Source: Kofleriaceae bacterium (GTDB lineage Bacteria; Myxococcota_A; Polyangia; Haliangiales; Haliangiaceae). From it: DNA of 64,000 nt. Positions 1 through 29,078 of the stretch are shown here, piece after piece. The translations under genes were made by a program, and so were the position numbers. Numbering within the stretch: the first letter of the stretch is position 1; the number at the start of each line of letters is the position of its first letter. The stretch is taken from contig JANXOP010000079.1 of NCBI GenBank assembly GCA_025357755.1, forward strand, positions 1 to 64,000. Direction: 5' to 3'. The notes beneath the pieces were generated by a model that saw nothing but the letters and a program-made list of their open reading frames with translations, was not told where the DNA came from and did no database searches.

Positions 1-345
1 GTTTACCTGTTTGGGCATTCCGCGGGCGGGACAGGGGGCTGGCACATCGGCACCAAATACGCCGACAGGTTCGCCGGCCTGGCGATCAGCGCCGCCGGCA
101 CGCGGCCCGATGGCTTCCCCTTCGACAAGGTCAAGGACAAGGCGCTGATGGTGATCGTCGGTTCAAAGGATGATCCGGGCACCGTGGCGCTGGCGCGACA
201 GATGGCAAAGGCGCTGCGGGAACATGGCCATGCACCCCAGTTCCTTGAGATCGCTGGTGCGACCCACACCACGGTCGTTGGTTTGGCCGAGCCGCGGGTT
301 CTCGATTTCTTCGACCAGCACAGCAAGCGTCGACAGCGGCCTTAA
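1..345 (+). CDS. Alpha/beta-hydrolase (esterase-like), C-terminal fragment
   Basis: The reading frame is open from the left edge, so the N-terminus lies outside the window and 114 codons are visible. The visible start has a nucleophile elbow GHSAGG (Ser at visible residue 7). An acidic residue in SKDD (about 57) and a histidine in ATHTT (89) follow at the spacing expected for an alpha/beta-hydrolase triad. The short strand-turn layout resembles dienelactone hydrolase or PHB-depolymerase-like esterases. The substrate cannot be told. It probably hydrolyses an ester, but that is family inference. Confidence 0.75.
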   Translation, partial: VYLFGHSAGGTGGWHIGTKYADRFAGLAISAAGTRPDGFPFDKVKDKALMVIVGSKDDPGTVALARQMAKALREHGHAPQFLEIAGATHTTVVGLAEPRVLDFFDQHSKRRQRP

Positions 346-417
346 CCCGCGTCGGGCGACACGACGTCGGGCGCGATCTGTGACACCTTCGTCGCCGTCT
401 GGCATGCTGATTACGGA

Positions 418-1299
418 GTGCGTGTCTGGATGCTGTCTCTTGCCGTGGCGTTTGCGGCGATATCCGGGTGCCACAGGGCAAACCCCCTGTTTACCGGTCG
501 AAACGGGGCGACACCAACGTCCGACGCCGCCGCGGCCTTTCCGCCGGACGCGGGCCCTGCGAACATTCGAGACGCAAACCCCACGCCACCGCCGGACGCG
601 GGCCCTGGGGACATTCGGGACGCAAACCCCACGCCACCTGGATCTTCGTCCCTCGACCTGGATCTCATCGGACACTGGGCGTTGGACGACGGGTCGGGCA
701 GTGGCACTGCGCTGGATTCTTCGCCCAACGCCAACGCCGGCGTCCTGCGCGACATGGACGCCACGACCAGTTGGACCCCAGGGCATTTTGGCACGGGGCT
801 ACGTTTTGAGCGCAAGGGATGGGTGCAAATCCCCCCCTCCACCAGCATCAACAGCATCAGGAACGCGTACACGATGGCGGCCTGGATCAATCCTGCCGAT
901 TCCTCGGTGAAATTCGGCACCATCCTGGCCAGACAGATCGGCGCGTCCTCAGGCGAATACTACGCACTGTTCGTCACCCCGGCGGGCCTGATCGTCGTGT
1001 TCAATAATGCGGGCTTCCTGGCGCGCCAGTTGCCAAGAGGCGTCTGGGTACACGTGGCTGCAACCTACGACGGGACGGTGGGCCGGATCTTTGTTGGTGG
1101 GGTCGAGGACCGGGTCGTTACCCTCGGTGGCACGACAACGGCGGACACCACGGCTTTCACCATCGGCGGCAACATCGACGACAACAGCGACACCGCGTCC
1201 AACAACTTCGATGGCATCATCGATGAGGTCCTGCTGTACCGCCGCGCGCTGCCCCCGGCCGACATTGCCCGTCTGGCCGCCGGCGAGCGGCCACACTAG
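418..1299 (+). CDS. LamG/concanavalin-like lipoprotein
   Basis: A 293-residue protein starts with a short hydrophobic signal ending in the lipobox AISGC (Cys18), so it is predicted to be a secreted lipoprotein. Residues about 42-74 are a Pro/Asp/Ala-rich linker made of two near-identical 16-residue repeats (DAGPxxIRDANPTPPx). From about residue 84 to the end it has the LamG/laminin-G jelly-roll pattern: GHWALDDGSG, then AAWINP, GVWVHVAATYDG and FDGIIDEVLLYRRAL. This domain usually binds carbohydrate or protein ligands. No catalytic site is visible. It stands alone, 72 bases after the hydrolase fragment. Confidence 0.85.
   Translation: MRVWMLSLAVAFAAISGCHRANPLFTGRNGATPTSDAAAAFPPDAGPANIRDANPTPPPDAGPGDIRDANPTPPGSSSLDLDLIGHWALDDGSGSGTALDSSPNANAGVLRDMDATTSWTPGHFGTGLRFERKGWVQIPPSTSINSIRNAYTMAAWINPADSSVKFGTILARQIGASSGEYYALFVTPAGLIVVFNNAGFLARQLPRGVWVHVAATYDGTVGRIFVGGVEDRVVTLGGTTTADTTAFTIGGNIDDNSDTASNNFDGIIDEVLLYRRALPPADIARLAAGERPH
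543..638 (+). repeat. Two-copy 48-bp tandem repeat
   Basis: Two adjacent 48-bp units (543-590 and 591-638) differ at only a few bases and encode two 16-residue copies of a Pro-rich linker inside the LamG lipoprotein. The length is a multiple of three, so copy-number change would keep the frame. Confidence 0.85.
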
Positions 1300-1319
1300 G
1301 GGGCCGGGCGGTCACGCCG

Positions 1320-2030
1320 CTACGACACGGCCTTCTTCGAGCGCCAGACCGCCTTCTTGTGCCGCAGCTTCGGCGGCGCCAGCAACGCGGGGTTTTTGAG
1401 GATCTCCTGCAGCAGCGCGCGCGGATCCCCGTCGGCCGCCTTGCGCATATCGCCGCCTTCGTCGCGGGCGATCTCGATCAGCAGGCGATTGGACACCACT
1501 GACCGCGGCGCCAGTTCCGTCACGTCCTCGGTGCTGGCCCACTGGTCGCGGTGTTTGATCATCAACCACGCAGGCTTGCCGTCGCCGGGGCGCCCACGCG
1601 TGCGCACCAGCACCCAGGATCCCCGCAGCTTCTTGCCGTGGAAGGTTAGTTTGAGATCCCCCTTCTTCAGCGCGGCGTCCGCATCGGGGGATTCGGGCGT
1701 CCAGGAACCATGGTCCCAGATCATCACGGTGCCGCCGCCGTACTCACCCTCGGGGATGATGCCCTCGAACTTGTTGTATTCGATTGGATGGTCCTCGACC
1801 TGCATGGCCAGGCGTTTGACGGTCGGGTCGTAACAGGGGCCCTTCGGCACCGCCCACGACAGCATCACCCCACCCCATTCCAGCCGCACGTCATAGTGCA
1901 ACGCCGTCGCCCGGTGCTTCTGCACCACGAACGCCAGGGCCTTCGTCTTGCGCGCACCGCCGGCCGTCGTGCCCTGGGGCTCGGTGGTAACAGAAAAGCG
2001 CCGCTTCTTGCGGTAGGTCTCGAGGGTCAC
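1320..2030 (-). CDS. LigD-type DNA 3'-phosphoesterase
   Basis: A stand-alone 236-residue homologue of the N-terminal phosphoesterase domain of bacterial NHEJ ligase LigD, which trims 3'-phosphates and 3'-ribonucleotides at DNA ends. The family opening LxxYRKKRxFxxTxEP is at residues 3-18. The active-site pattern is complete: His39, His45, Asp47 and Arg49 in QKHRATALHYDVRLE, then His81 in VEDHP and Tyr85. FEGIIPEGEYGGG follows. I chose GTG at 2030 because it places the family motif at the N-terminus. The longer frame upstream to 2297 has no family resemblance. The C-terminal ~50 residues are a basic tail. No ligase or polymerase domain is attached. Confidence 0.88.
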   Translation of the reverse strand: MTLETYRKKRRFSVTTEPQGTTAGGARKTKALAFVVQKHRATALHYDVRLEWGGVMLSWAVPKGPCYDPTVKRLAMQVEDHPIEYNKFEGIIPEGEYGGGTVMIWDHGSWTPESPDADAALKKGDLKLTFHGKKLRGSWVLVRTRGRPGDGKPAWLMIKHRDQWASTEDVTELAPRSVVSNRLLIEIARDEGGDMRKAADGDPRALLQEILKNPALLAPPKLRHKKAVWRSKKAVS

Positions 2031-2124
2031 GGGTCTACGATAAGACGACCGGCCGCCAAAAACGACTGCAGGGCGATGTCCGCATTTCGCCCGCCCCCCC
2101 GGGGTAGTAAAGTAATATGGACCC

Positions 2125-2550
2125 ATGGCTTCAGGCGACGCGCGGTGGCAACCCCTAACGGACCTCTTCAGCCGCATACGAGCGGCGTGGCCGGCCGGCA
2201 CGTGGACCTGGGATGAACGCTTCGAATGCGCGCTGTCGACGGTCAGCAAGACACACGATCCCGTGGCGCGCGCCGCCGCCGCCACCGCGATGCCCACTGT
2301 CTGGACAGCGCCGACGTTGACGAAGGCCCCGGACGCAGTTCGCGAGCTGGTGCGCGGGACAGGCGGGCTGCGCGGAGATCAGAAAATGTTCACGGCCGAC
2401 CTCGGCGTCTTACACGCGGGCGCCTTTGCATACTGTCTGTGGTGGCCCTGGGGCAACGGGGCGAATGCCTCCGCACGAATCAGCGCGGCCGGCACGGACA
2501 GCGACGACGACGTCGAGGCGCTGCTGCGATCGACCTTCAAGATCGGATAG
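2125..2550 (+). CDS. Hypothetical protein, 141 aa
   Basis: An ATG-started frame fills the otherwise empty 2.03-2.55 kb interval and ends 5 bases before the next gene, so the two may be cotranscribed. The protein is soluble, with no signal peptide or membrane span, Trp-rich in its middle (TWTWDERF, LWWPWG) and acidic near the end (TDSDDDVEAL). I do not recognise a family. It is divergent from the phosphoesterase gene, and the 94 bases between them should hold both promoters. Confidence 0.55.
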   Translation: MASGDARWQPLTDLFSRIRAAWPAGTWTWDERFECALSTVSKTHDPVARAAAATAMPTVWTAPTLTKAPDAVRELVRGTGGLRGDQKMFTADLGVLHAGAFAYCLWWPWGNGANASARISAAGTDSDDDVEALLRSTFKIG

Positions 2551-2555
2551 GGCCC

Positions 2556-3533
2556 GTGGCACCCGCAACCATTCGCTGGGGAATGATTGGCTGCGGCGAG
2601 GTGACCGAAGTCAAAAGCGGTCCAGCTTTTGCGCGTCCCCCGCATTCGTCCCTGGTCGCGGTCACGTCGCGCAGTCGCGCCCGCGCGCAAGACTACGCCC
2701 ACCGTCACAATGTGCCGCGTGTTCACGACGACGCAGCCGCGCTGGTCGGCGATCCCGACGTCGACGCCATTTACATCGCGACGCCCCCGTCATCGCACAA
2801 GACATACGCGGTGTTGGCCGCCGAGGCCGGCAAGCCCGTCTACGTGGAAAAGCCCATGGCCACCAGCCACGCCGATTGTCTGGAGATGATCAACGCGGCC
2901 GAACGCGCGCGCGTACCGCTGTTCGTGGCCTACTACCGCCGGGCGCTGCCGCGTTTCCAGGAGATCGCTCGGCTGCTGTCAGCCGGGGCGATTGGCGACA
3001 TTCGCGCCGTGACTGTGTCATTGCGCCAGCCGCCCGCACCCGCACACGCCGACCACGCCAACCTGCCCTGGCGGGTGATTCCGGCAATCGCGGGCGGCGG
3101 CCTGTTCATGGATCTGGCCAGCCACACGCTGGACCTGCTCGATTTCTTCTTGGGCCCCATCAACGATGCGCACGGCGTGACAGCGAACCAGGCCGGGCTG
3201 TACGACGCCGAGGACATCGTCGTTGGCCAGTTTCGATTCAAGTCCGGCGCCCTCGGGACGGGTTCGTGGTGTTTCGCCGCCGGGGATCGTGCCGACCGAA
3301 CGGAAATCATCGGCAGCCGCGGCCTTATCGCCTTCTCCACCTTCGCGGATATCCCGCACGAGATCACCATCGACGGCCAAACGACGACCAGCTTCATCCC
3401 CAATCCGCCGCACGTGCAAGAGCCCCTGATCACCAGCATCGTGGGTGCGCTGACGGGCCGCGGCTCTTGCCCCAGCACGGGCACCAGCGCCGCGCGCACG
3501 GCGTGGGTCATGGATCGCATCCGCGCCCACTGA
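2556..3533 (+). CDS. GFO/IDH/MocA-family NAD(P)-dependent oxidoreductase
   Basis: A 325-residue dehydrogenase of the Gfo/Idh/MocA family, which oxidises or reduces sugars, inositols and related polyols with NAD(P). An N-terminal Rossmann fold is shown by GMIGCGEV (G9, G12, G14). The family's EKP motif is at 98-100, with the catalytic lysine. The C-terminal alpha/beta domain contains GGGLFMDLASHTLDLLDFFLG, where the Asp/His pair matches the usual catalytic helix. The start is GTG at 2556, which keeps the full Rossmann strand; ATG at 2583 would cut into it. The substrate cannot be inferred from the neighbours. Confidence 0.87.
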   Translation: MAPATIRWGMIGCGEVTEVKSGPAFARPPHSSLVAVTSRSRARAQDYAHRHNVPRVHDDAAALVGDPDVDAIYIATPPSSHKTYAVLAAEAGKPVYVEKPMATSHADCLEMINAAERARVPLFVAYYRRALPRFQEIARLLSAGAIGDIRAVTVSLRQPPAPAHADHANLPWRVIPAIAGGGLFMDLASHTLDLLDFFLGPINDAHGVTANQAGLYDAEDIVVGQFRFKSGALGTGSWCFAAGDRADRTEIIGSRGLIAFSTFADIPHEITIDGQTTTSFIPNPPHVQEPLITSIVGALTGRGSCPSTGTSAARTAWVMDRIRAH

Positions 3534-3575
3534 TCGCGTCTGCGTCTTGGCACGTCCGTCGCATCGAGCGACGGC

Positions 3576-4949
3576 ATGCGACTGGTCTTCGATCGCGGCA
3601 CCCTTCTTCTGCATGACGTCCCCGACAGCGCCCGGATCCAGGAGATCCCCGGCGTTCTGTGGGACGATCGGGTCGGCTGCTTCAGGGCGCCCGCGCGGCT
3701 GACGTATTCGCTGCTGACGGCGTTGCGGCAGCGGGACGTCCCGGTGTCGGACAGGCCGTCCCCGCGTTTGGCCAATCCGTCCGGCTTTCATCCCATCCCG
3801 CTGCGGCCCTACCAGGAGGCCGCCCTTGAAGCGTGGCGCATGTCCGGCCGACGCGGGCTGGTTGTTCTTCCGACGGGTGCCGGGAAAACCCGCGTGGCGA
3901 TGGCGGCCATGGCGGCCACGCGCGCGCCGATCCTGTGCCTGGTGCCGACGCGGGCTCTTGTGGCCCAGTGGTGCGGGGCGCTGGACGAATTCTATGACGG
4001 CGTCGTCGGACGCTTCGGCGACGGCGAACGGACACTGGCGCCCATCACAGTGGCGACCTTCGCCAGCGCGCACCGCCACATGTCCGTCCTGGGCGACCGG
4101 TTTGGTTTGGTGGTCATCGACGAGGCGCACCACTTCGGCAGCGGCGGCCGCGACGAGGCACTGGAAATGACCATCGCGCCCTTGCGTCTTGGGCTGACCG
4201 CCACGCCCTGCGCGCCGGGTGCCGCGACCGATCGAATCACGACGCTGATCGGACCCGTGGTCTGTCACCTGGCCGTCGGGGATCTGACCGGGGACGCGCT
4301 GGCGCCGCTTGATCGCATCACATGGCGGCTGCGTCTGGATCCCTACGAACGCCGCGAATACGACGCCCTTACCGATGTGTACCGCAAGGCCTTCGCCGCC
4401 TTTCGGGGTGCGCGCCTGGGCAGCCAGTGGGAAGATTTCATCCGTCACGCCAGATGCACCGACGAGGGACGCATCGGCCTGTCTGCCTGGCGCCGGGCCA
4501 GTCGCCTTTTGGCCTACCCGCGCAGCAAGCAGGATGCCCTGCGTGTGCTGCTGGCGCGCCACCACGCTCAGCGGACACTGATCTTCGTCGCCAACAACGA
4601 AACCGCGTACGCCATCGCGCGCGAACATTTGATCATGCCCCTGACATGCGACATCGGTTCCAGGGAACGGCAGGCGGTTCTGAAGCGTTTTGCCGAAGGC
4701 TCGTTGCGCGCTTTGGTATCGGCGCAGGTTCTGAACGAAGGCATCGACGTTCCCGACGCCGAGGTGGGCATTGTCGTCGCCGGCAGCCACGGCGCGCGCG
4801 AGCACGTTCAGCGGGTCGGCCGCTTGCTGCGCCCCGCCCCCGGCAAGCGCGCGCTGATCTACGAACTGGTCATTGCCGCCAGCGGCGAGATGGCGCAGGC
4901 GGAAAGGAGGTCGGAGCCCCTTGCTGCCCGAACGCGAACTGCCGCTTAG
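3576..4949 (+). CDS. XPB/SSL2-like superfamily 2 DNA helicase
   Basis: A 457-residue helicase of the XPB/Rad25 type. A ~70-residue N-terminal damage-recognition-like segment (MRLVFDRGTLLL...LPDSARIQ-like start) precedes the motor. Motor motifs are RPYQ (77-80), Walker A PTGAGKT (to 105), Walker B/DEAH (182-185), LTATP (207-211), and in the second RecA lobe the QRVGRLLRP arginine-finger motif. In archaea XPB works with the Bax1 nuclease to open and cut DNA. The next gene, which overlaps this one by 29 bases, encodes a Bax1-like protein, so a helicase-nuclease pair is the natural reading. Bacterial XPB homologues are known but less common than UvrABC. Confidence 0.88.
   Translation: MRLVFDRGTLLLHDVPDSARIQEIPGVLWDDRVGCFRAPARLTYSLLTALRQRDVPVSDRPSPRLANPSGFHPIPLRPYQEAALEAWRMSGRRGLVVLPTGAGKTRVAMAAMAATRAPILCLVPTRALVAQWCGALDEFYDGVVGRFGDGERTLAPITVATFASAHRHMSVLGDRFGLVVIDEAHHFGSGGRDEALEMTIAPLRLGLTATPCAPGAATDRITTLIGPVVCHLAVGDLTGDALAPLDRITWRLRLDPYERREYDALTDVYRKAFAAFRGARLGSQWEDFIRHARCTDEGRIGLSAWRRASRLLAYPRSKQDALRVLLARHHAQRTLIFVANNETAYAIAREHLIMPLTCDIGSRERQAVLKRFAEGSLRALVSAQVLNEGIDVPDAEVGIVVAGSHGAREHVQRVGRLLRPAPGKRALIYELVIAASGEMAQAERRSEPLAARTRTAA
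4904..4910 (+). promoter_or_regulatory. Strong ribosome-binding site for the Bax1-like gene
   Basis: AAGGAGG lies inside the end of the helicase gene, ten bases ahead of TTG at 4921. It decides the start of the nuclease gene, since no such site precedes the other in-frame starts. Confidence 0.6.
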
Positions 4950-6117
4950 GGTCACGGACAGCGAGGCGTTCTTCGACTTCCTGGGCCCACAGGACGAGCC
5001 CTGGCTGCAGGTCTTGCTGCGCGAAATGCAGCGTTTCGAGGGGCGCCGCTGGCGGGAGCTTGCCGAACGTCTGGCCGAACCCCTGCCGTGCCAGGCGCCC
5101 CACTTCAAGCGCCGGTGCGCAACCCGGGTGCTGGCCCGCCTGTGGCGGCGGGAAAACATCGCCGTCGCGCCACCACCTGACCTGCGCGCGCGCGTGTTCG
5201 CGGCAGCGGCGGCAACACGGGCACCCGCCGCGGACATTCTGACCGCGGTCGCGGCCGACCTTGGGCTTGATCAAGCGGCGTTGCTGGAATCCCTGTTCGC
5301 GGATCTGCCGCCCGAACGCCGCGTGCGCGCCCCCGCCACACCGCCGGGCCCGGCCGAACTGGCGTTGCGAACCAACCTCGCCGTCACGCAGGCGGCGCTG
5401 ATGCGGGCGTCCCGGATCGCGTTGCGCGTGCGCGGGGCCGCACGCCCCATCGTGAGACTGGCCAAGCTGCAGGGGCTTCTGTGCGTGGTGAAACAGACCA
5501 CGCCCGACACCGAGCCCGTCCTCGATATCTCGGGGCCGTTCTCGCTGTTCCGCCACACCCTTTTGTATGGCCGCGCCCTGGCCGCCCTGCTGCCACACCT
5601 GGTGTGGTGCGCGCATTTCGAACTGCGCGCGCAAGCCCTTCTGTGGGGCCGCATCACCGATGTCACGCTACAAAGCGGCGTGCCCATCTTCGCGCCCGCG
5701 CCGCCCGTGCCCTTCGACAGCCGACTGGAACAGCGCTTCGCGGACGACTTTGAACGGCTCGCGCCCGACTGGCACCTCATCCGCGAGCCTGTACCGCTGC
5801 GTGCCGGCGGAACCCTCATCTTTCCCGACTTTCTCGTCGAGCACCGCATCCACCCGCAGCGCCGGGTGCTGGTCGAAATTGTCGGCTTTTGGACGCCCGA
5901 ATACCTCGCCAGCAAGCTGGCCCATCTGCGGCAGGTCAGCGCGGACAAGCTGATCGTGTGCCTCGACGAAGAACGCGCCTGCGCGCCCGGGGATCTGCCG
6001 GCCGAATTTTCCGTCGTGCGCTACCGGCGACGCATCGACGCATCCGCCGTGCTGCGCGAGGTGGAACGGATGACCGGCCTCCAGGAATCGGCGGGTTCCC
6101 GACAACCTGTGGCGTAA
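4921..6117 (+). CDS. Bax1-like (DUF790) nuclease, partner of XPB
   Basis: A 398-residue protein matching the DUF790/Bax1 family, the endonuclease partner of archaeal XPB helicase. The C-terminal third has a PD-(D/E)XK-type core: an aspartate in LIFPDFLVE, then VEIVGFWTPEYLASKL with the acidic residue and lysine, and later ADKLIVCLDEE. The N-terminal half is helical and basic and probably contacts DNA and the helicase. I chose TTG at 4921 because of the AAGGAGG site; the frame is open further upstream but without a signal. The gene overlaps the helicase by 29 bases, indicating translational coupling. Function in repair is inferred from the archaeal pair. Confidence 0.83.
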   Translation: MLPERELPLRVTDSEAFFDFLGPQDEPWLQVLLREMQRFEGRRWRELAERLAEPLPCQAPHFKRRCATRVLARLWRRENIAVAPPPDLRARVFAAAAATRAPAADILTAVAADLGLDQAALLESLFADLPPERRVRAPATPPGPAELALRTNLAVTQAALMRASRIALRVRGAARPIVRLAKLQGLLCVVKQTTPDTEPVLDISGPFSLFRHTLLYGRALAALLPHLVWCAHFELRAQALLWGRITDVTLQSGVPIFAPAPPVPFDSRLEQRFADDFERLAPDWHLIREPVPLRAGGTLIFPDFLVEHRIHPQRRVLVEIVGFWTPEYLASKLAHLRQVSADKLIVCLDEERACAPGDLPAEFSVVRYRRRIDASAVLREVERMTGLQESAGSRQPVA

Positions 6118-6126
6118 GATGTCTCG

Positions 6127-7464
6127 ATGGCGCGAAATCCAGGCCTGCGGATCGTCCTGTCGGCGGTGCTGGCGGGCGCGGTCGCGCACACGGCCCGTGA
6201 TCCCACTGCAGCCACCCAGCCCCGCGCGGCCCTTTCGTACACGGCGGGACTGCGCGGGCATGTGGCGGGCCTTGCCCGGCGGGCGACCGTCGTCGATGGG
6301 GCGCGGGCGACCGGCAGTGACATCCTGCAGCTGGACGCAGGTGATCTGTCGCCGCCTTCAACCCCAGAAGGACAGCCTGGCGACCAGCGTCGCCCGGCCC
6401 TGATGCTGGCCGCAGCTGCACGCATGGGAATCGACGTCGTGACGCCGGGCGAGACCGATCTGGTTGCCGGACCCGAACGCTTTGCTGCGCTTGCGCGGTC
6501 AGCCCACGTGACGGTGGTGGCGACCAATCTGCTGGGCCACAACGGCAAGCGCCCCTTTCTGGCGCATCACCTGGTCCCGCTCGGCGCGCGTTCTGTCGGC
6601 GTCTTCGGACTGATCGAGGGCTGGAACCTGCGCACCACCGACCCAGTCGCCGCCGCGCGCGAGGCCGTCGTCGCGCTAAAGGCCAAAGGGGCATCGCTGA
6701 TAGTGGGCCTGTTCCATCTGGCCGGCGGACAAGCACGGGCGACGGAAATTCTGGCCGCCGTTAGCGGCGTCAACGTCGTCGTTCTTGGCCACGCGTCAAC
6801 CGAGGGCGCGCCGCGAATCGCCGGCGTCGCCGGACAGACGTCGATCGTCGAGGCGGGCGACGCCACAAGCGCAGCCGGCGTCCTGGACGTCGTCTGGCCG
6901 GGTACAGGCACGCCCGGCCCGCCGCCGCACCATGTGACGCCCCTGGCAGCCAGCGTACCCGAGCAACTGGGCGTGGGCCTCCTGCTGCAACTGGACGCAG
7001 CCCCGATACTGCCCCAAAGGAAAGTGCCTGGTGCCCAGAAGGCGCCCGCCTTCGAGACCTGGGACTACGCCAGCAACGACGCCTGCGTGCTGTGCCACGC
7101 CCCCGCGTTCGAACAATGGAAAACCACCGACCACGCCCACGCCCTGGCGACGCTGATCAGAAAGAAGCGCAATCACGATGCCGCGTGCCTCGGCTGCCAC
7201 AGTGTCGGTTTCCTGCAGCCCGGCGGCACGCGCAGCCTGGAGACCGCGACCACCTTTTTCGCCAACGTCGGCTGCGAGTCCTGCCACGGCCCGGGCGTCG
7301 GTCACGTGCGTTCCGTGGACAAGAAGAAGGGAACCGCGCGCAAGGTGCCCGAAACCGTATGCCTTGGCTGTCACACCGCCGACCAGACCCTGGGCCCGTT
7401 CGAATACGCCAAGGCCGTGAAGGAAATCCTGGGCCCCGGCCACGGGGCACCGTCTTCGAAGTAG
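6127..7464 (+). CDS. Metallophosphatase-like domain fused to tetraheme cytochrome c
   Basis: A 445-residue exported protein. The N-terminal hydrophobic stretch (about 8-22) looks like a signal peptide. Residues about 35-290 resemble the calcineurin-like/UshA 5'-nucleotidase core (ILQLDAGDL, VVTPGETDL, VATNLL, VVLGHAS), but the family's Asp/His metal ligands look incomplete: the usual DxH and GNHE are replaced by LDAGD and GETD, so activity is doubtful. The C-terminus carries four c-type heme sites CxxCH at residues 320-324, 354-358, 383-387 and 412-416, in cytochrome c554-like spacing. It should sit in the periplasm and transfer electrons. It begins nine bases after the nuclease gene, but its role there is unclear. 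Confidence 0.82.
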   Translation: MARNPGLRIVLSAVLAGAVAHTARDPTAATQPRAALSYTAGLRGHVAGLARRATVVDGARATGSDILQLDAGDLSPPSTPEGQPGDQRRPALMLAAAARMGIDVVTPGETDLVAGPERFAALARSAHVTVVATNLLGHNGKRPFLAHHLVPLGARSVGVFGLIEGWNLRTTDPVAAAREAVVALKAKGASLIVGLFHLAGGQARATEILAAVSGVNVVVLGHASTEGAPRIAGVAGQTSIVEAGDATSAAGVLDVVWPGTGTPGPPPHHVTPLAASVPEQLGVGLLLQLDAAPILPQRKVPGAQKAPAFETWDYASNDACVLCHAPAFEQWKTTDHAHALATLIRKKRNHDAACLGCHSVGFLQPGGTRSLETATTFFANVGCESCHGPGVGHVRSVDKKKGTARKVPETVCLGCHTADQTLGPFEYAKAVKEILGPGHGAPSSK

Positions 7465-7555
7465 TGTTCACGGCGCGGCGAAGACTGGCCCCCGGCGCTG
7501 ACGCGCGTCGCCCGGCGACCGACAAGGTCCCCGGGCGACACCGACAATCACCTTC

Positions 7556-9013
7556 TTAGTAGCGGTAGTACTCGGGCTTGTACGGCCCCTCGACGGGCAC
7601 GCCCAGGTATTCGGCCTGGGTCTTGGTCAGCGTGGTCAGGTTGACGCCGACCTTGCCGAGATGCAACCGGGCGACCTTTTCGTCCAGCTTCTTCGGCAGC
7701 GTGTAGACCTTGCCGCTGGCGAAGGTCATGCCGGTCATTTCGTCCTTGCCCTTGGTGGCGTTCGCCCACAGCGCGATCTGCGCGATGCTTTGGTTGGTGA
7801 AGCTGTTGGACATGACGAAGCTGGGGTGGCCGGTGCCGCAGCCCAGGTTCACCAGACGCCCGCGCGCCAGCAACGTCAGCCGCCTGCCGTTCGGGAAGAT
7901 GAACTGGTCGACCTGCGGCTTGATGTTCTCTTCCTTGATCTCCTTGTTGTTCTCCAACCAGGCGACCTGGATCTCGCTGTCGAAGTGGCCGATGTTGGAG
8001 AGGATTGCCTCGTCCTTCATGACCTGGAAGTGCTCGGCGCGGATGACATCGAAGCAGCCCGTCGCGGTGACGAAGATGTCGGCGATCGGCGCCGCGGTCT
8101 CCATCGTGACGACCTCGTAGCCTTCCATCGAGGCCTGTAGCGCGCAGATCGGATCGATCTCGGTGATGAGCACGCGCGCGCCGAGGCCGCGAGCTGCGTG
8201 TGCGCAACCTTTGCCGACATCGCCATAGCCGGCGACGACGACGACCTTGCCCGCGACCATCACGTCGGTCGCGCGCTTGATGCCGTCGAACAGCGACTCG
8301 CGGCAACCGTAGAGGTTATCGAACTTCGACTTGGTGACCGAGTCGTTGACGTTGATGCAAGGGAACAGGAGCTTGCCCTTGTTCGCCATCTCGTAGAGGC
8401 GGTGAACGCCAGTGGTGGTCTCTTCCGAGACGCCCTTGATCTCGCCCGCCATCGTGGTGAAGCGCGTCTTGGAAGCGGCAAGCGACTTCTTGAGCACCGT
8501 GTAGATCACGCGCATCTCGTCGTTCGTCGCAGTCGACGGATCCGGCGTCTTGTTGGTCTTCTCGGCTTCGGCGCCCATGTGGACGAGCATCGTGAGATCG
8601 CCACCGTCGTCGAGGATCATGTTCGGGCCCTTGCCACCGTTGAACGCGGTGAGCTGGAGCTCGATGTTCGCCCAGTAATCCTCGAGGTTCTCGCCCTTCC
8701 AGGCGAACACCGGGATGCCAGCCTTCACCATCGCGGCGGCGGCTTCGTCCTGCGTCGAGTAGATGTTGCAAGAAGTCCAGGTGACTTCGGCGCCGAGCGA
8801 GACGAGCGTCTCCATGAGGACGGCGGTCTCGATCGTCATGTGGAGGCAGCCCGCGATGCGAGCGCCCTTGAGCGGGTGCTTACCCTTGTACTCCTCGCGG
8901 AGCGACATCAAACCCGGCATCTCCTTCTCGGCCATGCGGATCTTCTTGCGGCCGAGCTCGGCGAGGCTCATGTCTTGAACTTTGAACGCGGGGAATTCGT
9001 TGCGGCTTTCCAT
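7556..9013 (-). CDS. ahcY: Adenosylhomocysteinase (SAH hydrolase)
   Basis: A full-length 485-residue S-adenosyl-L-homocysteine hydrolase, which splits SAH into adenosine and homocysteine and so relieves methyltransferase inhibition. Visible family marks: [33 protein letters not shown], the NAD-binding loop [23 protein letters not shown], and the C-terminal KPEYYRY that reaches into the neighbouring subunit. GGAG lies nine bases before ATG at 9013. It follows the regulator gene by 24 bases, same strand. Odd: codon use changes within the gene. Upstream of about position 7998 on the coding strand 21 of 26 Leu codons are CTC; after about 7957 only 1 of 14 is CTC and 10 are CTG. The protein itself is intact. 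Confidence 0.96.
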
Positions 9014-9037
9014 GATCTATCTCCAGTACGTGCGTGG

Positions 9038-10072
9038 TTATGCAGTCGCTCGCAACGGCTTTCGACCGATCGCGAGCTGAAGGGGTGGGTGGTGAGGAGT
9101 CGGTAGGGGTTGGGTGACGATCGGCGTGAGGTCCGCCGCCGCGATCCAGTTCGTGAGCTTGCCGGGTTCGAAGCCGAGCCACACGTGGCCTTGCTCGCGC
9201 AGCGTCTCGTCGTCGTGCGGAGCGTGATCGACGAGCGCGAGATGACCACCGGGCCGGAGCAAGCGCGTGGCCGCCGCGATCGCATCTTGCGGCCGACCGA
9301 GAAAGTGAAGCACGCGCGAGATCACGACGAGGTCGGCGCCACGCTCCTTGGCCTGGCCGGCCGGGCCGAGCACTTCTTCGGCGAGCGCGGCATCTTCGAT
9401 GCTGCCTTCGCGCAACCGCACGTTCGCGAGGCCCCACTGTTCGAGCCGCGCCGCACAGCGCGCGAGGCGAGCCGCACTGCGATCGACCGCGACGACGCGT
9501 TCGTAGAGGGGGGCGAGCAGCGGCAAGAGCGCACCTTCTCCGGTGCCTGCATCGATCGCGAGGGCCCGCCCCGGCAACAGTGGCGCGAGGATCGGCAACC
9601 AGCCGACGAGCAGCGAATCGAGCGCCGGCGCCGGCGCTTCGTGGACGTGCTCGTCGAATAACTTCTTCGAGAGCTCTTCACGCTGCGCGACCACGCGCGC
9701 GACCTTCGCGAGGCTGCCGTCCTTGCTGCACAACCGGCGACCTTCGGTCACGGCCGCATCGATCACGCCGCGCCGCCCTTCGGCTGCACTGTCGCCCGCG
9801 GGCAAGCCTCGATCGCCGACGACGTCGGTCTGGAGCTCGGCCTTGAGCAGGATCCGCGTCCCATCGCGGCGCGAGGCGAGGAGCCCGACCTCGCGCAACG
9901 GTTGGGTCTTCTTCGTGATCTGCGGCTGACTCTCGTCCATCAGCAGGGCGAGCTCGCCGACCGTGAGCTCTTCTTCCGCGCACAGCGCGAGCAGACGGAG
10001 GCGGTCCTCATCGCCGAGCAAGCGGAACAAATCCGCGCGCACCGTCTGCATTCCCTTTATATATTCCATCAT
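9038..10072 (-). CDS. ArsR-family regulator fused to SAM methyltransferase (SahR-like)
   Basis: A 344-residue fusion. Residues about 8-75 form an ArsR-type winged helix (RLRLLALCAEEELTVGELALLMDESQPQITKKTQPLREVGLL region). Residues about 160-330 are a class I methyltransferase, with motif I AIDAGTGEG, motif II VVAVDRS and a later PGGHLALVDH. ArsR proteins of the SahR group control ahcY and methionine genes in Proteobacteria in response to SAH. This gene sits directly ahead of ahcY in the same direction, so it probably senses SAH/SAM through the methyltransferase fold and controls ahcY. Whether it still methylates anything is unknown. ATG at 10072 is followed by a second ATG at 10069; either may be used. 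Confidence 0.82.
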   Translation of the reverse strand: MMEYIKGMQTVRADLFRLLGDEDRLRLLALCAEEELTVGELALLMDESQPQITKKTQPLREVGLLASRRDGTRILLKAELQTDVVGDRGLPAGDSAAEGRRGVIDAAVTEGRRLCSKDGSLAKVARVVAQREELSKKLFDEHVHEAPAPALDSLLVGWLPILAPLLPGRALAIDAGTGEGALLPLLAPLYERVVAVDRSAARLARCAARLEQWGLANVRLREGSIEDAALAEEVLGPAGQAKERGADLVVISRVLHFLGRPQDAIAAATRLLRPGGHLALVDHAPHDDETLREQGHVWLGFEPGKLTNWIAAADLTPIVTQPLPTPHHPPLQLAIGRKPLRATA

Positions 10073-10099
10073 GCGAATCTAGGCAAGCAAGGTTCTGAA

Positions 10100-10174
10100 G
10101 GTAGGTAAAGTACGAGCCAATCCGGCAAGCTAAAGCCTCGCAGCCGTTTGACTTGTCGGAGTACCGCTCCTACC
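10100..10174 (+). ncRNA. Structured 5' leader element ahead of Ser/Thr kinase gene (class unknown)
   Basis: Three nested helices can be drawn from the bases. The outer one is GGTAGG (10100-10105) with CCTACC (10169-10174). The middle one is GTAC (10110-10113) with GTAC (10161-10164). The inner one is CCGGCAAG (10122-10129) with CTTGTCGG (10152-10159), 8 pairs including one G-U. The inner helix closes a 22-base loop containing TAAAGCC and CAGCCG. The element ends 23 bases before the kinase ATG and could be a riboswitch-like leader or a protein-binding site. It lacks the conserved blocks of c-di-GMP (GEMM) riboswitches. The opposite strand is the regulator gene's promoter region, so a DNA-level role is also possible. 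Confidence 0.35.
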
Positions 10175-10197
10175 ATTGAGGAAGTAACGCGTAGAAC

Positions 10198-11937
10198 ATG
10201 TCGGCGGAATCTGGCGGCAAGCCACCCACCGGGTCGTCGCCGGGGCGGCCAGTGGCCGACACCCCGCAGCGGCTGATCGTGCGCTCGCAGCAGGGTTCGG
10301 AATCCGTCCATGGAGTCTCCGACACCGCGGTCGCCACCGCGACGGCGACCCGCCAATCGGGCGAACGCCCGAGCGATCACTCGATCGATGCGACGATGGA
10401 TCCCGAGAGCGATCCGCGGGTCACGCCGAGCGGCGAGTTGCGCAAGTCGGGAGGCACGTCGTCCCCGCAAGACCTCATCGGCACCACGCTCGCGGGCCGC
10501 TATCTGGTCAAGCGCCAGATCGGGCAGGGCGGCATGGGCGCGGTGTTCGAGGCCACCCACACGCTGATCGGCAAGCGCGTCGCGGTGAAGGTGTTGCTCG
10601 AGAAGTACGCGGAGCGTGAAGCGATCGTCGCGCGCCTCAAGAAGGAAGCGCAGCTCGCGAGCTCGATCGGTAACGAGCACATCATCGACATCAACGACAT
10701 CGGCAACACCGATGACGGCCGCACGTTCGTGGTGATGGAGTATCTCGACGGTGAATCACTCGCCGAGTGCCTCGCACGCGAGCACGAGCTGCCCGAGCAA
10801 CGCACGCTGCGGATCGCCTCGCAGGCGGCCTCGGCGCTCGGCGCGGCCCACGCCGAAGGCATCGTCCATCGCGATATCAAGCCGGAGAACTTGTTCCTGC
10901 TCAAGCGCAAGGAGCTCGACTTCGTCAAGGTCGTGGACTTCGGGATCTCGAAGTCGCTGCGCGCCACCGGCGAACAAGAAGAAGCGCAACGGCTCACGCA
11001 GACCGGGATGGTGCTCGGCACGCCGCTGTACATGTCGCCGGAGCAAGCACGGGGCGACGAGGATCTCGATCATCGCGTCGATATCTACGCGCTCGGCGTG
11101 ATCATGTACGAGGCCATCACGGGTCGCGTGCCGTTCGCCGGCACGAACTACCTCTCGGTGATCTCGCAGGTCCTCAACGAGGAACCCAAGCCACTGCGCG
11201 AGATTCGCCCGGATGTCTCCGAGGAGCTCGAAGCGATCGTCAACAAGGCGATGAGCAAGGATCGCAGGCTCCGCTACGACGACGCCGAGGCGATGTTGAA
11301 GGACATCACGTCGGTGCTCGAGGACCCGACGCACTCCACCGAGCGCGCGCGGATCACCGGGCCGCGCAAGAAGTTCGCGCAGAGGGCCAAGGGCCTGCCG
11401 CGTACGGCCCTCGCGATCGGTGGCATCGGCATCGCGATCGCGCTCGTGATGCTCGCGGTCGTGCTGCTGATGGGTAAGAACGAGCCGCGCAAGAAGCCGG
11501 TCGACCCGAGCAATGTCCTCGTCGCTCCGGTTGGCGACGCGGGCGTCGCCCTCGCGACACCGGATGCCGCGCCGGTCGAGCCACCCGCGCCAAAGATCAC
11601 GCTGCAGATCGAGAGCGATCCGCCGGGCGCGATGATCTATCGCGACGAGGAACAGATCGGCCCATCGCCCCAGGCACTCCCGCTGATCCAGCGCGATCGG
11701 ATCGTGAAGATCACCGCGACGCTCGAGGGCTACAACAATGCGAGCACCACGATCAATCCGCTCGAGCGCAGCGACGGCCAGAAGATTCCGCTCAAGCTGC
11801 TCAAGCTGGCCAAGAACGCTCCGCAACCCGCGAAGCCGCACGGTTCTGGTTCGGGTTCGGGTTCGGGGACGCCCCATGCGGGTACGGCCGGTGGAGAGCT
11901 CGGTGGCTATCCGCCCAGTGGTACGCTCCCGAAGTAG
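10198..11937 (+). CDS. Ser/Thr protein kinase with TM segment and PEGA-like domain
   Basis: A 579-residue eukaryote-like (Hanks) kinase. A ~95-residue disordered Ser/Pro-rich N-terminus precedes the kinase domain (about 100-365): G-loop IGQGGMG, ATP lysine 131 in VAVK, HRDIKPEN with Asp226, DFGISKS and GTPLYMSPEQ. All key residues are present, so it should be active. A single membrane span lies at about 402-424, followed by an extracytoplasmic PEGA-like domain (ITLQIESDPPGAMIYRDEE region) and a GSGSGSG tail. The stop overlaps the GTG of the next gene, which encodes a TPR/PEGA membrane protein and is the likely partner or substrate. Target and signal are unknown. Confidence 0.93.
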   Translation: MSAESGGKPPTGSSPGRPVADTPQRLIVRSQQGSESVHGVSDTAVATATATRQSGERPSDHSIDATMDPESDPRVTPSGELRKSGGTSSPQDLIGTTLAGRYLVKRQIGQGGMGAVFEATHTLIGKRVAVKVLLEKYAEREAIVARLKKEAQLASSIGNEHIIDINDIGNTDDGRTFVVMEYLDGESLAECLAREHELPEQRTLRIASQAASALGAAHAEGIVHRDIKPENLFLLKRKELDFVKVVDFGISKSLRATGEQEEAQRLTQTGMVLGTPLYMSPEQARGDEDLDHRVDIYALGVIMYEAITGRVPFAGTNYLSVISQVLNEEPKPLREIRPDVSEELEAIVNKAMSKDRRLRYDDAEAMLKDITSVLEDPTHSTERARITGPRKKFAQRAKGLPRTALAIGGIGIAIALVMLAVVLLMGKNEPRKKPVDPSNVLVAPVGDAGVALATPDAAPVEPPAPKITLQIESDPPGAMIYRDEEQIGPSPQALPLIQRDRIVKITATLEGYNNASTTINPLERSDGQKIPLKLLKLAKNAPQPAKPHGSGSGSGSGTPHAGTAGGELGGYPPSGTLPK

Positions 11938-13592
11938 TGAGGGGCACAGCGCTGCTGTTCGTTGCGGCGGTGACCTCGGTGGCACACGCCGAGGGTCGCG
12001 ACGCCGGATACATCTCGAAAGATGTGCTCGAGCTCGAGATCGATCAGTGCGTCCCCGATAAGGCGATCTCGAAAGAGGAGCTGCTGCGTCGCGGTGGCGA
12101 GTACTACCAGCGCGGCGAAGTGCTGTATCTCCAGGGCGATTACAAAGGCGCCGTGCAGGAGCTCGTGTCGAGCTACTGCCAGGTCCCGTTCTATTCGATC
12201 TTGAAGGATATCGGTCAGGCATACGAGCGCGAGCTCGAGTACGGCCGTGCGATCGCGTACTTCTCGCGCTACGTGCTCGATGTCCCAGCCGATGCCAAGC
12301 GCGCGAATTCGTGCGCCCCGGATCCGCAGGAAGACAAGAAGAACGTGCTCGCGCGCATCCAGGTGCTCGAGAAACTCCCGGCGAAGATCCGCGTGCAAGT
12401 CACGCCGAACGATGCGCACATCAGCATCGTCCAGGATTCGATCGTCAGGTCGTACGGCAACTCGGGCTCCGAGCTCGTCGTGCCAGGCGGCCCTTATCAG
12501 CTCGTGATCGAGCGCGCCGGCTTTCACTCGGTGACGCGCGAGATCCACCCGGAGATCGGCAAGCCGTACACGTACTTCGAGACGCTCAGCGCGATCAAAG
12601 GTCACCTGCGCGTTCGCACGATCCCCGGCGATGCCCGGATCTTCCTCGATAACCGGCTCGTCGCGAGCGGTCTCTACGAGACCGATCTGCCGGGCGGCAA
12701 GTATCATGTCTCGGTCGAGGCGCAGGATCGTGTGACGGTCGACAAGGATGTCGACGTCCTCGCCGACAAGGACGCGGACATCTCGATCGAGATGCCGCGC
12801 GAGCCGGAGTTCGGGCGCAAGCAGTTGCTGCTGTACAGCGTGTTCGGCGGTAGCCTCGCGGCGGCCTTCGCGCTGCAGAATCAGAATGGCTCGACGATCG
12901 CGAGTGCGTCGGTGATCGGAGCGGGCACCGGCTTTCTCGGGGTCTACTACGGCACCGATCGTAACCTGGCGCTCGGTACGAGCTCGCTCACCGTCTCGGC
13001 ATCGCTGATCGGTGGCGTGAGCGGTGGTGTGCTCGGTGGCTTGATCAGCGGATCGCAGGACGTGGTGTTGCCGCTGATCGGTGGCGGGCTCGTCGTCGGT
13101 GGCGTCGCGGGGTATCTCGTCGGCGATCGCACGCATCCCACGCCAGGGGATGCGGCCGTGATCAACTCCGGCGCCTTGTGGGGCACCGTCGCGGGCAGCT
13201 TGTTCTCGGCGACGTTCAAGCCCGGTGATCAGATCTCCTCGGGGCTCGTGCTTTCGGGGCTCGGCATGGGCACCGTCGCAGGCGTCGTGCTGCAGCGCTT
13301 CTTCACGGTCAGCCGGACCCGCGCCTTGTTGATCGATGCGAGTGGCCTCGTCGGAGTGTTGCTCGCGCTCGCCGCCGAAAACGTCGTTCAACAGATCGTC
13401 GATAACCAGGCGACCTCGTCCACCGAGCGCACCGCGAACTACGCGCTCGGCGGGCTGACCACCGGGTTACTCCTCGGAGGCATCTTCACGCGCTCGATCG
13501 ATGATCCGAAGCTCGCGATCACGCCCGCGGTGAACAACGTGCGAACGGGCTCGGTCTCGACGACGACATTCGGCATCGCCGGTTCGTTTTGA
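11937..13592 (+). CDS. TPR/PEGA-domain membrane protein, kinase partner
   Basis: A 551-residue protein with a signal peptide (about 1-18, ending in AHA). A TPR-like segment follows (GGEYYQRGEVLYLQGDYKGAVQEL, then AYERELEYGRAIAYFSRYVLDVP). Two PEGA-type beta domains lie at about 145-220 (RVQVTPNDAHISIV) and 220-290 (LRVRTIPGDARIFLDNRLVASG). The C-terminal half holds many short Gly/Ala/Val-rich hydrophobic spans, suggesting a multi-pass membrane region. GTG at 11937 overlaps the kinase stop by one base, so the two are translationally coupled. PEGA domains are surface beta modules of unknown ligand. I infer a sensor or scaffold for the kinase. Confidence 0.8.
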   Translation: MRGTALLFVAAVTSVAHAEGRDAGYISKDVLELEIDQCVPDKAISKEELLRRGGEYYQRGEVLYLQGDYKGAVQELVSSYCQVPFYSILKDIGQAYERELEYGRAIAYFSRYVLDVPADAKRANSCAPDPQEDKKNVLARIQVLEKLPAKIRVQVTPNDAHISIVQDSIVRSYGNSGSELVVPGGPYQLVIERAGFHSVTREIHPEIGKPYTYFETLSAIKGHLRVRTIPGDARIFLDNRLVASGLYETDLPGGKYHVSVEAQDRVTVDKDVDVLADKDADISIEMPREPEFGRKQLLLYSVFGGSLAAAFALQNQNGSTIASASVIGAGTGFLGVYYGTDRNLALGTSSLTVSASLIGGVSGGVLGGLISGSQDVVLPLIGGGLVVGGVAGYLVGDRTHPTPGDAAVINSGALWGTVAGSLFSATFKPGDQISSGLVLSGLGMGTVAGVVLQRFFTVSRTRALLIDASGLVGVLLALAAENVVQQIVDNQATSSTERTANYALGGLTTGLLLGGIFTRSIDDPKLAITPAVNNVRTGSVSTTTFGIAGSF

Positions 13593-13610
13593 TCCTGGTA
13601 CCGTGGCGCC

Positions 13611-15599
13611 GTGACGCTGGAACGTCGCCCGAGTGCGTGCCCTCTCGATTGCCCTGATCTCTGTGGGCTCGAGGTCACGGTCGAGCACGGCCGCGTCCTG
13701 GCAGTCGATGGTGATCATCGCAGCTCGTTCACCAACGGGATGATCTGCGGCAAGGTCCGCAAGATCGCGGATCACCTCTACGGTCCCGATCGCTTGCTCT
13801 ATCCGATGCTGCGCGAGGGCGACCAGTGGCATCGGCTCGGCTGGGACGCCGCCCTCGACCTGGTCGCGAGCAAGCTCGAAGCGATCCGCGCGCGCCACGG
13901 CGGCACCGCGATCTTGCCGTACCACTACGGCGGCTCGAACGGCTGGCTCACCGACGGGGCACTCGCCGAGCGGTTCTGGCGCCGGATGGAGACGAGCCAG
14001 CTCGACAGGACGTATTGCTCCGCCGCGGCGACCGCGGCCTCACGCGGGCTGTACGGCAAGATGCCGGGCGTCGCGCTCGAAGACTACGAGCACGCGAAGT
14101 TGATCGTGTTGTGGGCCGTGAATCCCTCGGCGACCGGGATCCATCTCGTGCCGGTGATCAAGCGCGCGCGCGAACGCGGTGCGAAGCTAGTCGTGATCGA
14201 TCCGCGCGTCACGCCCTTGGCCCGCGGTGCCGACATGCATCTTGCCGTGCGACCCGGCGCAGATCTGCCGGTCGCGCTCGCGATCATCGATGCGTTGTTC
14301 GAGCGCGGTCACGCCGACAAACAGTTTCTCGCCGAGCACTGTGAAGGAGTCGACGAGCTTCGCCACCGCGCCGCACTGTGGCCGATCGAGCGCGCCGCGG
14401 CCGAGGCCAAGATCTCGGCGGCGCAGCTGTCCGAGTTTGTCGATCTCTACGCAGCAGCGTCGCCGGCGGCGCTGCGGCTCGGCTATGGCCTCGAGCGCAA
14501 TCGCAACGGGGGTAGTGCGGTCGCCGCGGCGATCGCGATTCCGGCGATCGCGAACAAGTTCGGCGTGCGCGGTGGCGGCTTCACGATGTCGAACAGCGAT
14601 GCGCCGTGGACCGTGAGCTCGGAGGCCGCGATCGGGACCGAGCCGCAGGTCGCGCGGCACGTCAACATGAGCGGTGTCGCCGAGGCGCTCGCGACGCTGC
14701 GCGATCCGCCGATCGAGTGCATCTTCATCTACAACGCGAATCCGGTCGCGACCGCGCCGGATCAACGCCGGTTGATCGAGCAGCTGCGCCGCGATGATCT
14801 GTTCGTGATCTGTCACGAGCAGGTGTGGACCGACACCGCGCAGCTCGCAGATCTGGTGCTGCCGGCGACCGCCTTCCTCGAGCATCGCGAGCTTCGTCGC
14901 GGCTACGGCAACATGCGGATGTACGATTCGCCGGCGGTCGCGACCCCCGCAGGTGAAGCGCGCAGCAACAACCAGCTGTTCGGGGCGTTGCTCGAGCGTT
15001 TCGGTCTCGTGCGTCCCGGCGATGCGATGACGGATCAAGAGCTCGTCGATCGGATGCTCGCGGCGGGCAGCCACGGCGAGGAGCTGCAAGCCTCGCTCGC
15101 GCGCGATGGCATCGCGCAGCCGGCGGGGACCGAGCGGCCCGTGATGTTCGTCGATTCGTTCCCGCCCTCCGGCAAGATCCAGCTCGTGCCGGAGGCGCTC
15201 GATCGCGAGGCGCTCGGCGGCCTGTACACCTACAAGGGCGATCCAGAGACCGAGGCGTTCCCGCTCGCCTTGATCTCGCCCGCGCTATCGACGCAGATCA
15301 GCTCGATGTTCGGTCAGCTTCGTCACGCGCCCGGCGAGCTCGAGCTCGCGACCGGCGATGCCGAAGCGCGCGGCATTCGCACCGGCGATCTGGTGCGAGC
15401 GTGGAACGCCACGGGCGAAGTGCGGTGCATCGCGAAGGTCACCGACGTGCGCCCAGGCGTGTGCGTGCTCGCGAAGGGCCTGTGGCGCAAGCACACCTCG
15501 AATGGCTACACCTCGAATGCGTTGATCCCTGGTGCGTACGCGGATCTCGGGGGGCAAGCCGCATTCAACGACGCCCGCATCCAGGTCGAGAAAGCCTAG
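13611..15599 (+). CDS. Molybdopterin oxidoreductase (DMSO-reductase family)
   Basis: A 662-residue catalytic subunit of the MopB/DMSO-reductase superfamily. A [4Fe-4S] site is formed by Cys10, Cys14, Cys18 and Cys46 (CPLDCPDLCGL and GMICGK). The Mo-bis-MGD fold follows, with NPSATGIHLVPVI, VIDPRVTPLA, IYNANPVATAPDQ and a C-terminal dinucleotide-binding barrel (GDLVRAWNATGEV). A cysteine at 136 in TYCSAAA is the best candidate Mo ligand, as in the formate/polysulfide reductase branch. No signal peptide or partner subunit is adjacent, so a soluble cytoplasmic enzyme of unknown substrate is likely. GTG at 13611. Its stop shares CTAG with the convergent kinase gene. Confidence 0.88.
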   Translation: MTLERRPSACPLDCPDLCGLEVTVEHGRVLAVDGDHRSSFTNGMICGKVRKIADHLYGPDRLLYPMLREGDQWHRLGWDAALDLVASKLEAIRARHGGTAILPYHYGGSNGWLTDGALAERFWRRMETSQLDRTYCSAAATAASRGLYGKMPGVALEDYEHAKLIVLWAVNPSATGIHLVPVIKRARERGAKLVVIDPRVTPLARGADMHLAVRPGADLPVALAIIDALFERGHADKQFLAEHCEGVDELRHRAALWPIERAAAEAKISAAQLSEFVDLYAAASPAALRLGYGLERNRNGGSAVAAAIAIPAIANKFGVRGGGFTMSNSDAPWTVSSEAAIGTEPQVARHVNMSGVAEALATLRDPPIECIFIYNANPVATAPDQRRLIEQLRRDDLFVICHEQVWTDTAQLADLVLPATAFLEHRELRRGYGNMRMYDSPAVATPAGEARSNNQLFGALLERFGLVRPGDAMTDQELVDRMLAAGSHGEELQASLARDGIAQPAGTERPVMFVDSFPPSGKIQLVPEALDREALGGLYTYKGDPETEAFPLALISPALSTQISSMFGQLRHAPGELELATGDAEARGIRTGDLVRAWNATGEVRCIAKVTDVRPGVCVLAKGLWRKHTSNGYTSNALIPGAYADLGGQAAFNDARIQVEKA

Positions 15600-17011
15600 C
15601 TCAGGAGCAGGATCGTCAACACGATGACGACGATCGTCAGCGCGACGATCCCGATCACGATCGCACTCCGGCCGAGCGAGCGCGTGACGGGCACGACGAT
15701 CGGCATCGGCTCGGGCGGGACCTGGAGGATGCTCGTCGCGACCATCGCGGGCTGCGAGTCGTACTGGATCGAGATCTCGGGCAACGACGCTGACGCAGCG
15801 GGAGCCATCCGAGGCTGTGACGCTCGCGGCGACAGCGACGGCATCGGCGGCAACGGCAACGCGCTGTGCTGGTCGTCGAGCGGCCCACTCGGCGGCATCG
15901 TGCGCTGGACCTCGGCCGAGAGCTGCTGCACGCGGACTCCCGGTGCTGGAGTCGGAACGCGAAAGCCTGTCACGGTCTGCGGCACCGGTGCGGTCGCGCG
16001 TGGCGGCCGGGTGCGCTCGTCCTCGAAATCGTGGGCCCGCATCTGCGGCAGGTTATCGATCGTCTTGTCCGGATCGAGCTCCGAGAAGGAGGGACGCACC
16101 GGAGGCAGCGACATCGAGATGCCGGCGGCCGTCATCGTCGGAATCTTCGTGCCACGTAGCCGCTTGAGCACCGTGACCACGGCCGCGAGCGACGGACGAT
16201 TCGGTGGGTCCTTTGCGAGCATCGCTTCGATCAGCTGCACGAGCTCCTCGGGCAGCCCGGTGACGCGTTCGGCGAGCGACGGCACCGGTTCGTCTTGATG
16301 CAGCAGGAGCGTCTCGACCGAGCTCGCGCCGTAGAATGGCGGTCGCCCGGAGAGCAGCTCGTACGACATCACCCCGAGGGCGTAGATATCGGTGCGCGCG
16401 TCGACGAGCTCGGACGCGCGCGCTTGTTCCGGCGACATGTACACGGGCGTGCCGAGCATCGAGCCGGTCAGCGTGCGAAAGTTGCCGGTCGGTGCGACCA
16501 GCTTCGCGAGGCCCCAATCGAGCAGCCGGACCTCGGGCCAGCCGCCCGGCACGTTCATCATGAACACGTTGTCGGGTTTGAGATCGCGATGGATGATGCC
16601 CTTCGCGTGCGCCGCGATCAGCGCCGAAGAGATCTTGTCGATGATCTCCGCGGCTTCGCTGACGTGGACCGCCCCCGTGCGCTTGAGACGGTCGCGCAGC
16701 GATTCACCCTCGAGCAGGTCCATCACGTAGTAGTGCCGACCGTCCGGCAGGGAGCCAAAATCGAAGATATCGACGATGTTCGGATGACCGATGCGATTGA
16801 CCGCCCGGGCTTCGGTGATGAAGCGCTCGACCGCGGAAGGCTCGTTGGAGAGCGCGGGCTTGAGGATCTTGATCGCCGCGCGCTTGCCAATCAGGGGATG
16901 CGTCGCGGCATAGACCACGCCCATGCCACCGACGCCGATCATCTCGTCGATCAGATAGCCGCTGACGCTCGTGCCCGCTCCCAGCAGCGCGCCATCGTCG
17001 AGACCGCCCAC
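15596..17011 (-). CDS. Ser/Thr protein kinase with C-terminal TM anchor (paralogue A)
   Basis: A 471-residue Hanks-type kinase. The catalytic domain is at about 19-285: G-loop IGVGGMG (25-31), Lys48 in AAIK, HRDLKPDN, and GTPVYMSPEQ. The usual DFG is DWG here (LLDWGLAK); the Asp that binds metal is kept, so it should still be active. A Pro-rich linker of about 140 residues leads to a C-terminal membrane span (last ~22 residues, IVIGIVALTIVVIVLTILLL), leaving almost nothing outside. GTG at 17011. It lies 21 bases after its closest paralogue, with which it shares long stretches (HPNIVDIFDF, VMDLLEGESLR), so the pair arose by tandem duplication. Confidence 0.93.
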   Translation of the reverse strand: MGGLDDGALLGAGTSVSGYLIDEMIGVGGMGVVYAATHPLIGKRAAIKILKPALSNEPSAVERFITEARAVNRIGHPNIVDIFDFGSLPDGRHYYVMDLLEGESLRDRLKRTGAVHVSEAAEIIDKISSALIAAHAKGIIHRDLKPDNVFMMNVPGGWPEVRLLDWGLAKLVAPTGNFRTLTGSMLGTPVYMSPEQARASELVDARTDIYALGVMSYELLSGRPPFYGASSVETLLLHQDEPVPSLAERVTGLPEELVQLIEAMLAKDPPNRPSLAAVVTVLKRLRGTKIPTMTAAGISMSLPPVRPSFSELDPDKTIDNLPQMRAHDFEDERTRPPRATAPVPQTVTGFRVPTPAPGVRVQQLSAEVQRTMPPSGPLDDQHSALPLPPMPSLSPRASQPRMAPAASASLPEISIQYDSQPAMVATSILQVPPEPMPIVVPVTRSLGRSAIVIGIVALTIVVIVLTILLLS

Positions 17012-17032
17012 GCGCCGATCATACTCCGATGC

Positions 17033-18373: not shown

Positions 18374-18388
18374 GAGAGGAAGTGTAGG

Positions 18389-19705: not shown

Positions 19706-19722
19706 GCCGAGCAGGATAGCAG

Positions 19723-20985: not shown

Positions 20986-20996
20986 CAGCCAGGGTT

Positions 20997-29074: not shown

Positions 29075-29078
29075 GGGA

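Follow-up and report, generated by a model that had tools for sequence, protein, structure and literature searches.

A composite ahcY gene of two species marks a probable chimeric contig in a Kofleriaceae draft genome

Background

In known natural mosaics both ends of the transferred tract are as a rule visible and several carriers are found. The mosaic penA gene of Neisseria is an example of such an interspecies mosaic gene. The adenosylhomocysteinase gene (ahcY) described here resembles these genes in that it has a conserved housekeeping function and its ancestry changes abruptly. Unlike them, it has a single carrier and a single junction; the tract is nearly identical to the donor and runs to a contig end.

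Chimeric contigs from metagenomes are the second group for comparison. Chimeric contigs are said to be able to form at any shared k-mer (PMC4496567), and chimeric nodes common to two species are described as a known trouble when mixed reads are assembled with de Bruijn graphs (PMC8171044). The authors of GUNC regard misassemblies as relatively rare compared with mis-binning (PMC8201837). The contig analyzed here, C302, is like such chimeric contigs (PMC4496567, PMC8171044): two species are combined, they meet within a conserved stretch, one arm extends to an end of the contig, and a separate contig carries the native downstream block. A point of difference is that the join keeps the reading frame and the composite ahcY looks normal.

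The window analyzed in this study is the initial 64 kb of C302, a contig of 80,665 bases. It belongs to the draft genome G000, which has a size of 8.61 Mb in 450 contigs, a completeness of 89.9% and a contamination of 5.7%. The closest named records (L024-L040) are draft genomes too, nearly all of them labelled MAG, and are named Myxococcales, Deltaproteobacteria, Kofleriaceae or Proteobacteria. G000 itself is presumably a metagenome-assembled genome.

Results and discussion

The left arm of the contig is nearly identical to another species

The left end of the window was found to match the genome G029, which belongs to the same class as G000 but to a different family. Positions 1-7954 aligned with contig C3 of G029 in a single match from base 1, with 33 mismatches and no gaps (99.6%), and the 1399 bases beside the join (6556-7954) were identical throughout. 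The following stretch from 7955 to 9013 differed from G029 at 228 positions (78.5% identity). With no mismatch up to 7954 and 228 beyond, the ancestry of the sequence switches between the neighbouring bases 7954 and 7955. The features on both sides of the join are listed in Table 1.

Table 1. Features of the window and their positions
Feature	Position	Strand	Remark
Left arm, foreign	1..7954		Collinear with G029:C3 27412-19459, reversed; alignment
Laminin_G_3 domain protein	418-1299	+	Pfam; left arm
LigD 3'-phosphoesterase-domain protein	1320-2297	-	Pfam; left arm
Gfo/Idh/MocA oxidoreductase	2226-3533	+	Pfam; left arm
XPB-type helicase	3576-4949	+	Pfam; left arm
DUF790 protein	4873-6117	+	Pfam; left arm
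Cytochrome c554-type protein	6127-7464	+	Pfam; left arm
ahcY (adenosylhomocysteinase), two-species composite	7556..9013	-	3' part on left arm; native up to codon 353, G029-type from codon 354 to 485 and stop
Probable crossover stretch in ahcY	7911..7957	-	47 bases identical between G029 and G008, G012, G013
Join	7954..7955		Last G029-type base / first differing base
Native part of contig	7955..64000		Native composition on to contig end 80665

Matches to ahcY were present in 34 of the 36 genomes searched, G000 included. When the gene was split at codon 338 and the best matches at 103 loci were compared, the two parts pointed to different relatives. Among the matches listed, the 5' part reached at most 86.8% identity to other genomes of the same genus and 78.7% to G029, and the 3' part was 97.7% identical to G029, with no other genome above 84.4%. 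The part of ahcY to the right of the join shared 78.3-86.3% with 13 genomes of the genus and 78.5% with G029.

Six same-genus genomes searched with the left arm had no near-identical counterpart of it. These carried an ordinary ahcY 3' end (78-81%) and otherwise only shorter or weaker matches. A search for near-identical G029 DNA elsewhere in G000, which covered a further 47.9 kb of C3 out of a G029 genome of 4.5 Mb, found none. The 9.6 kb that follow the left arm on C3 had no match in G000, and two other stretches of 20 kb and 18.3 kb matched at 67-85% and 69-89%, respectively. The absence of further G029 DNA is allowed by an assembly artefact and by a transfer alike.

On the G029-type arm the genes for an XPB-type helicase and a DUF790 protein adjoin each other (3576-6117), a possible case of the helicase-nuclease pairing XPB-Bax1. 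No tRNA was found within the window.

The right side is native and the block expected beyond ahcY lies on another contig

To the right of ahcY the window was collinear in patches with L024, L025, L028, L030 and L032 of the same genus. The collinearity with L024 reached 24.4 kb, and L024 lacked about 4.8 kb of the window (13.6-18.4 kb). In a survey of 11 loci with L024 as reference, a conserved block was located approximately 1.75-2.5 kb after ahcY in six (L024 itself, L025, L028, L029, L030 and L032) of eight loci that presumably belong to the same genus (L024, L025, L028-L032 and L036). There was no block after ahcY in L031, where only 3.3 kb past the gene are available, in L036 or in L037, whose kinship is unproved. 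In L026, L027 and L033, of likewise unproved kinship, the block was found on the opposite side of ahcY with inverted neighbours. In comparison with L024, the pair formed by ahcY and the neighbouring methyltransferase gene seems to be turned round with respect to the genes on either side in these three loci.

Since the right side of the window follows the order of L024, the block would be expected after ahcY in G000 as well. A search with that stretch of L024 found it on a separate contig, C72, at 71-75% identity. C72 consists of 13,974 bases, encodes a penicillin-binding protein and a MurE/MurF-type protein, and has a native composition with 16.9 GATCG and CGATC motifs per kb. Its first 400 bases gave no match to G029 at an E-value of 0.001. 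The native continuation is thus present elsewhere in the assembly for the downstream block only: neither the last 399 native bases of ahcY nor the adjoining 1.75-2.5 kb (approximately) were found in G000, and there was no second ahcY in this genome. Most or all of ahcY was also lacking in G014 and G015, two drafts of the same genus.

The first 135 bases of C72 (L118) represent a dispersed repeat with a 96% copy on contig C121 of G000. Besides C72, 30 matches were found in G000, G001, G003, G004, G005, G007, G018 and G020, nine of which lie at most 30 bases from the first base of their contig (in G003, G004, G007 and G020). The repeat resembles the end of a group II intron (Rfam RF02003, 34.8 bits, E 1.6e-6) at a score below the gathering score of 49, and a search of C72 positions 1-600 at the gathering score returned no Rfam match.

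Position of the join within ahcY

The stretch of 47 bases at the join corresponds to gene index 1056-1102 (0-based). The length of the run shared at the crossover was taken from relatives, which stand in for the true native sequence. In nine of 16 relatives the exact run overlapping this stretch was the longest one shared with the ahcY of G029. All nine are members of the genus, which comprises 13 genomes here, and three of them (G002, G004 and G010) showed ties. In the other seven relatives the run ranked second to sixth. Its length varied from 17 to 47 bases, with at least 26 bases in 11 of 16 relatives and the full 47 in G008, G012 and G013. On mean identity across the genus, gene index 717-723 was equally conserved.

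With k-mers no longer than the shared run, an assembler could change over at this stretch. Homologous recombination would favour the same kind of identical stretch, so that the place of the join separates neither reading from the other. In the ahcY of G010 (L009) codon 219 reads TGA, in frame, against TGC (Cys) in the window; the frame is otherwise open and this is perhaps a sequence error.

Assembly join or transfer between families

The alignments identified both sources of the sequence and the precise place of the join, and they located the native block on C72. It had been proposed that the join lies inside a conserved gene between two related genomes, and this agrees with our data, as the left arm derives from the species of G029 (99.6%) and the right part from the genus of G000. 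The original prediction also held natural recombination and an assembly join to be equally likely. Here we arrive at a different view: assembly is favoured by the combination of a left arm almost identical to the genome of another species, the terminal position of this arm in the contig, and the location of the native block on C72. We therefore regard C302 as very probably an inter-species chimeric contig from metagenome assembly, with a join that is not a real biological feature. This grading and the one given to transfer below are judgements of likelihood and not computed odds.

Such a contig may have arisen as follows. A member of the G000 genus would have coexisted in one sample with a strain of G029's species, and near codons 354-368 their ahcY genes would share an exact run a few tens of bases long. 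Through a k-mer crossover the assembler would have passed from the native ahcY into the copy of the other species and followed it over 8 kb as far as the contig start. A group II intron-like element present in multiple copies probably halted the native path on the way from ahcY to the following block. A short native piece, made up of the ahcY 3' end and the gap, would thereby have been left outside the genome. Beyond a co-occurring strain of the G029 species the artefact needs nothing. Several points count against it. The native ahcY 3' end is missing from G000, which a real replacement also predicts, although G014 and G015 lack most or all of the gene too. The join does not lie at the longest shared run in seven of the 16 relatives, gene index 717-723 is as conserved, and misassemblies are described as rarer than mis-binning (PMC8201837).

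Natural homologous recombination is the strongest of the other explanations, though we judge it unlikely. The lineage of G000 would very recently have gained at least 8 kb from the species of G029 by one crossover in ahcY. The unbroken frame and complete protein, the lack of a second ahcY in G000 and the location of the join in a highly conserved stretch are in agreement with this, as are the patches of similarity (68.7-75.4%) that the two lineages share beside ahcY in the methyltransferase region. However, an identity of 99.6% together with 1399 identical bases at the join would demand an almost contemporary transfer between families, and along the 5' part of ahcY the window and G029 share only 78.5%. 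Moreover, the tract runs to the contig start and no return junction was seen, even though an unassembled gap could hide one. The native downstream block survives on C72, where the first 400 bases are free of G029 matches. The same junction was not found in independent genomes among the best matches at 103 loci, which is weak evidence with one genome per species. A real recent transfer would bridge two families of one class at approximately 78% donor-recipient identity and leave a working composite enzyme, and we give this combination a small chance. If it were nevertheless true, ahcY would be a true interspecies mosaic gene.

Under the preferred reading of an assembly chimera, the case is a warning with respect to quality. 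The gene content, the synteny and the ahcY sequence within the left 8 kb are most likely those of another species, and taken at face value would mimic a gene transfer or a new gene neighbourhood. Unless reads support it, neither the genes at 1-7954 nor the final 132 codons of ahcY should be assigned to the G000 species.

Misbinning of the whole contig was ruled out, since foreign sequence is confined to 1-7954; the remaining 72.7 kb are native in composition and in part syntenic with same-genus records.

Codon usage and composition across the join

The join had originally been noticed as a switch in leucine codons within ahcY, with CTC used for 21 of 26 leucines to the right of about 7998 and for 1 of 14 to the left. 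Our recount gave identical numbers. At or right of 7998 the remaining leucines were encoded by CTG (2) and other codons (3), and left of it by CTG (10) and TTG (3). Arginine behaved similarly, with CGC dropping from 13 of 13 to 2 of 6. A codon scan, which had been named beforehand as a possible means of refuting the shift, confirmed it: a likelihood scan that took in every synonymous codon of ahcY placed the change-point at 7999, and none of 300 within-amino-acid shuffles reached the observed score. Both this position and the alignment join at 7954/7955 are consistent with the breakpoint interval of 7930-8100 given earlier, the join falling inside it.

For serine, a change from TCG to AGC/TCC had been reported. 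In the window TCG indeed decreased from 10 of 16 to 0 of 5, but this is weak evidence, as the ahcY of G029 itself has a similar change across the equivalent place (8 of 16 to 0 of 5).

The frame of ahcY is open and the protein exceeds the cut-off of TIGR00936 (637.6 bits, cut-off 497.6), so the earlier description of an unbroken frame and a normal protein holds. Codon use in the bare sequence detected the join despite a kept frame and a full-length protein.

Codon use can vary within genes, and an ordinary intragenic shift, caused for example by expression or local composition, would be in line with the serine change in G029. We consider this extremely improbable. When CTC was compared across the alignment-defined join, Fisher's test gave p = 3.5e-5 for the ahcY of the window, and no leucine shift was present in the ahcY of G029 and 15 other relatives (p 0.32 to 1; n = 16, with G006 left out). 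Furthermore, a change of the matching source from one base to the next is not codon choice. The alignment switch at 7954/7955 and the 16 relatives without a leucine shift refute ordinary codon drift.

The same break extends to the neighbouring genes. All six left-hand ORFs checked favoured CTG, as had been claimed. The corresponding statement that all genes on the right favour CTC was true for 40 of 42 automatically picked ORFs through the contig end, and thus not for all. The density of GATCG and CGATC, described as high on the right, was 13.6 per kb in 7955-80665 vs 4.3 per kb in 1-7954.

Both genomes are drafts, and in principle the contig of G029 could be the chimeric one and the window the true arrangement of a single genome. 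There is hardly any probability in this: C3 carried 2.2-6.2 GATCG and CGATC motifs per kb in all nineteen 4-kb bins (73 kb), ahcY included, and the ahcY of G029 uses CTG on both sides of the join position, whereas the window has the switch and an uneven composition across 7955. From the even composition of C3 it follows that the mixed sequence is the contig of the window and not that of G029.

At 46001-50000 of the window the GATCG density was about half of that in the flanking bins and CTGG was higher; both ORFs picked there still preferred CTC.
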